From Spirochaetaceae bacterium (GTDB lineage: Bacteria; Spirochaetota; Spirochaetia; DSM-27196; Alkalispirochaetaceae), in contig REEH01000091.1 of NCBI GenBank assembly GCA_007695175.1, positions 1 to 42,435 on the forward strand: DNA of 42,435 nucleotides. Direction: 5' to 3'. The notes under the pieces are model-generated. The model had not been told where the DNA came from. It saw nothing but the letters and a program-made list of their open reading frames with translations, and did not search any database. The position numbers were made by a program, and so were the translations under genes. Positions 14,154 to 15,024 of this stretch are shown piece after piece. The number at the start of each line of letters is the position of its first letter. Within the stretch, counting starts at the first letter, position 1.

Positions 14154-14182
14154 TTGATACGGATCGTATATCGGTGTATACT
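14154..14182 (+). promoter_or_regulatory. Strong sigma-70-type promoter inside the trxA-SDR gap
   Basis: TTGATA (14154-14159) and TATACT (14177-14182) are exactly 17 bp apart, each matching the consensus at five of six bases. The predicted transcription start is about 14188-14190. No good start codon with a ribosome site follows before the terminator at 14231-14276, so it appears to drive a short RNA. Confidence 0.65.
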
Positions 14183-14188
14183 TGCGAG

Positions 14189-14276
14189 TAGATTCGGTGT
14201 CCCTCTCCAGAGGGCACCTCCTGGGCCCATCGCCCTCCCGGGTTTTCACCTCCTTTCCCGGGAGGGCGTTTTTTTT
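14189..14276 (+). ncRNA. Putative ~88-nt small RNA with two anti-Shine-Dalgarno motifs
   Basis: A near-consensus promoter (14154-14182) and a strong intrinsic terminator (ending 14276) frame a short transcript. It has two hairpins. The first pairs GGTG (14196-14199) with CACC (14215-14218) and CCCTC (14201-14205) with GAGGG (14210-14214), loop TCCA, one bulged T. The second is the terminator. CACCTCCT occurs twice: 14215-14222, on the 3' side of hairpin 1, and 14247-14254, fully inside the terminator loop, where the longer TCACCTCCTTTC (14246-14257) matches the known 3' end of 16S rRNA. Such C-rich loops are used by several known regulatory RNAs to cover ribosome sites. An alternative is a leader with an attenuator for the SDR gene at 14305. 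Confidence 0.5.
14231..14276 (+). terminator. Strong intrinsic terminator
   Basis: A perfect 12-bp stem, CGCCCTCCCGGG (14231-14242) with CCCGGGAGGGCG (14257-14268), encloses a 14-nt loop and is followed by eight T (14269-14276). It ends transcripts coming from trxA and from the internal promoter at 14154-14182. Confidence 0.9.
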
Positions 14277-14304: not shown

Positions 14305-15024
14305 ATGAGACAAGGCAAAACGATCGTGATTACCGGCGCATCCCGCGGCATTGGACTTGCTCTCGCCCGGGAATGCCTCCTGCACAACCACAGCGTGGCG
14401 GCCCTGAGCCGCCGGCCCCGGGATTCCGGGGGGCTGGATGAACTCCTCCGGGACTATCCCGAGCGCGTGATTCCCCTTGCGGTGGATGTCACTGACCCGG
14501 ACTCACTCTCCGCCGCGGCGGACACGATTGCGGACCGGTTTCCCCGAGGCGTGGATATTCTCGTCAACAACGCGGGAGCGATGATTTCCCGGGAGATCCC
14601 GGAGGCAGGCGAGTTCCGGACCACTGAGCTGGAAACACTCTTTCGCGTGAACACGGTGGCCCCCCTTATGGTTACCCAGGCTCTCCTTCCGCTCCTCCGC
14701 AAATCGCCGGCTCCCCAGCGGCTTGTGATGAACGTAACCTCCGTCATGGGCAGCATCGCCCGCGTGGCGGAGCGCCGCAACTACAGCTACTCCGTGAGCA
14801 AGGCGGCCCTCAACATGCTGACTCGACTGATGCACCAGGATCTGCGCGACGAAGGGATCAACGTCTTTGCGATACACCCGGGATGGGTGCGGACGGAAAT
14901 GGGCGGCGAGAAAGCACACTTCTCCCCGGAAGAATCCGCGGCGGGCCTCTACGCGCGGATGCTTTCCTGGCGCCCCGGGGACGCGGAGCTGCTGGATTTC
15001 CGGGGTGAAGTGCTCCCCTGGTAA
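14305..15024 (+). CDS. Short-chain dehydrogenase/reductase (SDR)
   Basis: This 239-residue protein is a classical SDR. It has the nucleotide motif VITGASRGIGLALARE near the N-terminus, then VDILVNNAGAMIS, the catalytic Ser in MNVTSVMGS, and the Tyr-Lys pair in YSYSVSKAAL. It will be an NAD(P)-dependent oxidoreductase; the substrate cannot be told. The frame extends upstream through the terminator to 14182, but ATG 14305 is the first start that gives the family N-terminus. No Shine-Dalgarno is seen. A TAAGAT box at 14289-14294 lies ten bases before the ATG, in a setting nearly identical to that of the GH16 pseudogene, so a leaderless mRNA is possible. Confidence 0.9.
   Translation: MRQGKTIVITGASRGIGLALARECLLHNHSVAALSRRPRDSGGLDELLRDYPERVIPLAVDVTDPDSLSAAADTIADRFPRGVDILVNNAGAMISREIPEAGEFRTTELETLFRVNTVAPLMVTQALLPLLRKSPAPQRLVMNVTSVMGSIARVAERRNYSYSVSKAALNMLTRLMHQDLRDEGINVFAIHPGWVRTEMGGEKAHFSPEESAAGLYARMLSWRPGDAELLDFRGEVLPW

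Follow-up and report, generated by a model that had tools for sequence, protein, structure and literature searches.

A predicted anti-Shine-Dalgarno small RNA of a widely conserved, apparently undescribed family in Spirochaetota

Background

The alpha-r14 (cuckoo) RNAs of Alphaproteobacteria are multicopy, and their anti-Shine-Dalgarno (anti-SD) motif is identical and unpaired in hairpins with widely differing stems; in a 123-nt RNA, CCUCCUCCC is present in three such hairpins (PMC10746234). NfeR1 of Sinorhizobium meliloti does not depend on Hfq, and the mRNAs that it silences are bound at their translation initiation region (PMC10746234). The csRNAs of streptococci, members of the CiaRH regulon, include several similar small RNAs per genome under one regulator, have a terminator stem-loop and occur in a host that has no Hfq. 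In these CiaR-driven RNAs the anti-SD motif, together with an anti-start CAU, lies in an unpaired stretch between two stem-loops (PMC3091779). RybB and MicA are sigmaE-dependent small RNAs that were proposed to lower the synthesis of envelope proteins (PMC1804206). In the open-access literature, no described family of anti-SD small RNAs was found for spirochaetes.

The locus between trxA and the SDR gene

The window analysed here is a stretch of 42,435 nucleotides from a Spirochaetaceae bacterium (contig REEH01000091.1 of assembly GCA_007695175.1). The interval between its trxA and SDR genes, whose identities are both confirmed by Pfam, holds a sigma70-type promoter, a small hairpin and a terminator with a perfect stem of 12 bp. 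The features are as follows:

14154..14182, plus strand: sigma70-type promoter TTGATA-17-TATACT (TTGATA at 14154-14159, 17-nt spacer, TATACT at 14177-14182), 10/12 consensus positions; position and 17-nt spacing kept in four orthologs
14189..14276, plus strand: predicted small RNA of about 88 nt, with the start set from the -10 element and the end from the T-run
14196..14218, plus strand: 5' hairpin, GGTG (14196-14199) with CACC (14215-14218) and CCCTC (14201-14205) with GAGGG (14210-14214)
14215..14222, plus strand: first anti-SD motif CACCTCCT, half paired, not kept in orthologs
14231..14276, plus strand: intrinsic terminator with 12-bp stem, 14-nt loop and T8, the conserved element of the family; stem CGCCCTCCCGGG/CCCGGGAGGGCG (14231-14242 with 14257-14268), T8 at 14269-14276
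14243..14256, plus strand: loop TTTTCACCTCCTTT displaying the anti-SD, with the core kept across Spirochaetota and identity to the 16S tail

The promoter and the perfect terminator between trxA and the SDR gene had been claimed in the first-pass annotation, and both are present as described. The promoter ranks first of three promoter-like sites in 5 kb (1.3 expected from shuffles), and an alignment read by eye places a TTG...-17-TAT... element at the same position and with the same spacer in four congeneric orthologs (L002, L008, L009, L010). The computed fold of the RNA has -43 kcal/mol, with a z of -4.9 against shuffles.

The same annotation had CACCTCCT displayed twice. The motif does occur twice, at 14215-14222 and 14247-14254, and the terminator-loop copy is fully unpaired in the computed fold (P = 1.00), but the upstream copy is only partly free (unpaired P = 0.62), its CACC being paired with GGTG, and it is absent from the congeneric orthologs of the window copy, where the alignment shows that the 5' hairpin is not kept either. 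The proposed equality of the loop with the 3' tail of 16S rRNA was borne out, as judged on three congeneric genomes, the organism's own 16S 3' end being absent from the assembly: TCACCTCCTTTC (14246-14257) is identical to their tail TGGATCACCTCCTTTCT at 12 of 12 positions, the last C of this 12-mer being the first base of the closing stem and not part of the loop.

The SDR gene (14305-15024) intervenes after the hairpin in this genome; in congeners, a convergent outer-membrane-protein-like gene and a radical SAM gene directly follow the hairpin, with no SDR gene between.

A family of hairpins in Spirochaetota

In spirochaetes, the window copy belongs to a family of small RNA genes that is widely conserved and apparently undescribed. 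Its recurrence as a family places the element far beyond chance, and it is more than a plain terminator. A DNA search of relatives returned many matches, which were limited to the terminator, and the family hairpins have differing stems around one loop, TTT(T)-N0-3-ACCTCCTTT. In a hand-anchored alignment of 11 sequences, 99.1% of the stem cells were paired and two-sided changes occurred in 6 of 10 pairs; among 73 model matches, 98.4% were paired, with 149 compensatory cells as compared with 46 in shuffles. The homologous loci with compensatory changes that the first-pass annotation proposed to look for were found, such changes affecting 8 of the 10 terminator-stem pairs while the loop core is kept. 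As the outcome speaking for a plain terminator it had named a stem kept with its loop lost, and the reverse was observed: the loop is conserved and the stem varies.

The covariance model matched 80 of 393 Spirochaetota genomes and 54 of 167 genera (E <= 0.01); about 80% of the sampled Spirochaetota gave no match at this cut-off, partly due to strict filters. The model was built from loop-containing hits and its hit list alone is no proof of loop conservation; the loop-pattern and promoter tests are independent of this bias. Weak matches to the model occurred in four of 35 non-spirochaete control genomes, none of them a GC-rich terminator with the family loop; in one (L207) the loop is TTTTCCCGATCGAA, and another (L210) is a short palindrome of the SD itself. 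A search of 84,980 named genomes used the pattern AGGTTTN0-5ACCTCCTTTCCT, comprising the loop and three stem bases. The stem was extended to at least 7 bp at 41 of the 42 sites in spirochaetes, as compared with 1 of the 42 sites in other phyla. The hairpin is a real structure and, for this loop sub-pattern, is essentially limited to Spirochaetota. Among the matches is Alkalispirochaeta alkalica DSM 8900, a species that is in culture. Five Streptococcus genomes (L077, L111, L115, L120, L132) have one common conserved loop-pattern site with no extended stem.

The genome of the window has three paralogs, including the window copy; the other two are at C253 and C89. Rfam, searched at gathering scores and at E up to 5, gave weak matches only (LhrC, Hrs12, anti-hemB).

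The neighbours of the hairpin are constant within groups and different between groups, and their names rest partly on recognition of the sequence. The groups comprise trxA; a CBS/CNNM-type gene with leuS; phosphofructokinase with glucose-6-phosphate isomerase; acyl-CoA synthetase; and lipoyl synthase, with DNA ligase and aconitase as further neighbours within the genus. Given the leuS neighbours, the Termite-leu RNA was a candidate; the permissive Rfam scan gave no match to it.

Second motifs and tandem hairpins

Of the 88 family hairpins, 29 have a second CCTCCT no more than 110 nt upstream, with 2.1 expected; 10 of them show the arrangement CAT-N0-6-CCTCC, which joins an anti-start to the anti-SD motif (0.7 expected). 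The window copy has no CAU adjoining its loop motif. In seven members (L020, L029, L044, L046, L061, L062, L066), the linker before the terminator contains CAT-N-ACCTCC, complementary to an SD and an AUG start codon. Tandem hairpin pairs with identical loop occur in some members (L012, L026, L028, L037).

The ligase-type paralog (L167, L168, L172, L175, L180) is only about 60 nt long and begins with GGGTGAGTCAGCACGT, a 5' end that hardly varies within the genus. This end could pair with TTCACCT of the loop, perhaps masking it; such pairing of GGGUGAG at the 5' end with UUCACCU of the loop fits the ligase-type paralog and is not kept in the aconitase type.

Promoters and the ECF sigma operon

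TGTWAC-N17-GTT is present upstream of 43 of the 88 family hairpins, as compared with 0.15 expected from shuffles at the same spacing, and the 17 bases between the two elements are variable, as in a promoter. We take the form TGTAAC-N17-GTT to resemble ECF-sigma promoters, for example that of B. subtilis sigX. Both other paralogs of the own genome (C253, C89) carry this element; the window copy is without it and has the sigma70-type promoter instead. In a promoter-only search within the genus, about ten of 15 sites were family small RNAs, each with the loop. A stricter promoter pattern gave nine sites in 46 genomes of the order and none in a reversed control; seven of these are family small RNAs, and the other two each immediately precede an ECF sigma gene with a membrane anti-sigma gene behind it. 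The ECF-type promoter is common to the sigma operon and to the paralogs of the small RNA, not to the window copy.

ECF sigma and membrane anti-sigma operons with a TGTAAC-type promoter like that of the small RNA paralogs right upstream were seen at L214, L215 and L216 (G000:C241). L216 is the sigma ortholog of the own genome, 47-49% identical, with TGTAACC and a spacer one base longer before GTTAT; its partner protein has a weak likeness to RseA_N (E 0.019, below the cut-off). A TGTAAC-type promoter of its own suggests that the ECF sigma factor is autoregulated. Since the promoter of the paralogs also precedes the ECF sigma/anti-sigma operon, envelope stress probably induces some members of the family, and several of its RNAs would then belong to an envelope-stress regulon, with a stress signal presumably of that kind.

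Genes of predicted envelope proteins were also seen behind ECF-type promoters. Two related proteins of the own genome (L164, G000:C60; L166, G000:C84) have the motif SPANQDG(I/V)QD. At L170 and L171, related genes for outer-membrane-like proteins are preceded by the ECF-type promoter and, closer to the start, by one of sigma70 type.

Proposed mechanism and alternative explanations

In the proposed mechanism, the window copy would be transcribed from its sigma70-type promoter, and the paralogs from TGTAAC-N17-GTT, partly under envelope stress. The GC-rich terminator hairpin would end and stabilise the RNA and would present ACCUCCUUU single-stranded in its loop; the loop would pair with the SD of target mRNAs and block 30S binding, and translation of chosen mRNAs would probably be switched off. 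Pairing of the loop with a full SD is calculated at -18.7 kcal/mol; for two typical short SDs the value is about -10.5 kcal/mol. The own genome has six sites with the full 13-nt complement of the loop, of which three are the small RNA loci themselves, and none of its ribosome sites carries the full complement. The use of SDs in this genome is modest, with at least six matching bases in 41 of 241 genes as compared with 14 of 235 internal controls, and genes for signal-peptide or envelope proteins were not significantly enriched among its strong-SD genes. Hfq was not found in 41 genomes.

Taken together, it is likely that the locus encodes a stand-alone, Hfq-independent, trans-acting anti-SD small RNA of this family, some members of which are probably induced by envelope stress. 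The idea of an RNA displaying the anti-SD, already put forward in the first-pass annotation, gains from a loop that is conserved while the stem changes, but the repression that it foresaw is here a prediction from pairing. Tentatively, and with less confidence, an old Hfq-free envelope-stress circuit can be pictured for Spirochaetota, in which an autoregulated ECF sigma factor would drive minimal RNAs of about 60-90 nt, with the looped 16S anti-SD as their one fixed element, that brake the translation of strong-SD mRNAs, the sigma70-driven window copy setting a basal level.

The equality of the loop with the 16S tail over 12 nt, and a loop that is always single-stranded in computed folds, would also suit a protein decoy, which would imitate the 16S 3' tail, titrate Era, S1 or an rRNA maturation factor and tune ribosome assembly with no pairing to mRNA. 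The site bound by Era is GAUCACCUCC; it is not kept in the family, where the bases before CCUCC vary (CACC, TACC, AACC, TTCC, CTCC) but the core that would pair with the SD, CCUCCUUU, stays the same across members, and the anti-start CAU of ten members is not needed by a decoy, which we regard as unlikely. A plain terminator, or a 3' UTR element of trxA and other upstream genes whose loop is kept for termination or RNA stability, would agree with the strength of the terminator and with an upstream gene that is often on the same strand. Termination does not, however, require a loop that stays while its stem changes, and separate conserved promoters between the upstream gene and the hairpin, along with an extra motif copy enriched upstream of the hairpin, further argue against this explanation, which is quite improbable.

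In one group the hairpin is found a short distance before leuS, on the same strand, and in another it precedes the acyl-CoA synthetase gene, as would be expected of a cis-acting leader or attenuator that controls the gene behind it. Neighbours that differ between groups argue against a cis leader of one gene, and the downstream gene, which varies by group, is convergent in several (for example L008, L010 and the glucose-6-phosphate isomerase group), so that a leader is very improbable.

A trans-acting anti-SD RNA, the reading preferred here, would make this phylum-wide family, with its one fixed functional element, its testable ECF-type promoter and a member in the cultured A. alkalica, a means to test whether mRNAs can be silenced selectively by a bare anti-SD loop, with no known chaperone.

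Comparison with known systems

LhrC of Listeria (RF00616) is, like the spirochaete RNAs, a multicopy small RNA with C-rich motifs, one of them in the terminator loop. The likeness in Rfam is limited to one member (L003), with 28.9 bits (E 1.9) as compared with a gathering score of 110 bits, and the host of LhrC is Gram-positive.

As in the cuckoo RNAs, the motif is constant and the stems are variable in the spirochaete family. The loop core is ACCUCCUUU, unlike that of the cuckoo RNAs, and in place of three hairpins there is usually one motif hairpin, sometimes two in tandem. The cuckoo analogy drawn in the first-pass annotation would fit in mechanism, but the spirochaete family has no match to cuckoo/alpha-r14, or to any other family, in Rfam. 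Resemblances to the csRNAs are the terminator stem-loop, the several similar small RNAs per genome, the lack of detected Hfq, and CAU-N0-6-CCUCC upstream in 10 of 88 members; unlike in the csRNAs, the motif of the spirochaete RNAs lies in the terminator loop, and the promoter is of ECF type or sigma70 type.

Paralogs with an ECF-type promoter resemble RybB and MicA in their link to an ECF sigma factor that is paired with a membrane anti-sigma. RybB and MicA depend on Hfq and act through specific seeds, unlike the spirochaete RNAs, which have a bare anti-SD loop in a setting of 41 genomes where no Hfq was detected; the window copy, moreover, is not ECF-driven. The family is filed in none of the compared families because the motif, the architecture, the Rfam score or the Hfq dependence fails to agree. 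It would work like the cuckoo RNAs and the csRNAs while being a member of neither, and it could be the spirochaete counterpart of the sigmaE-RybB/MicA system.
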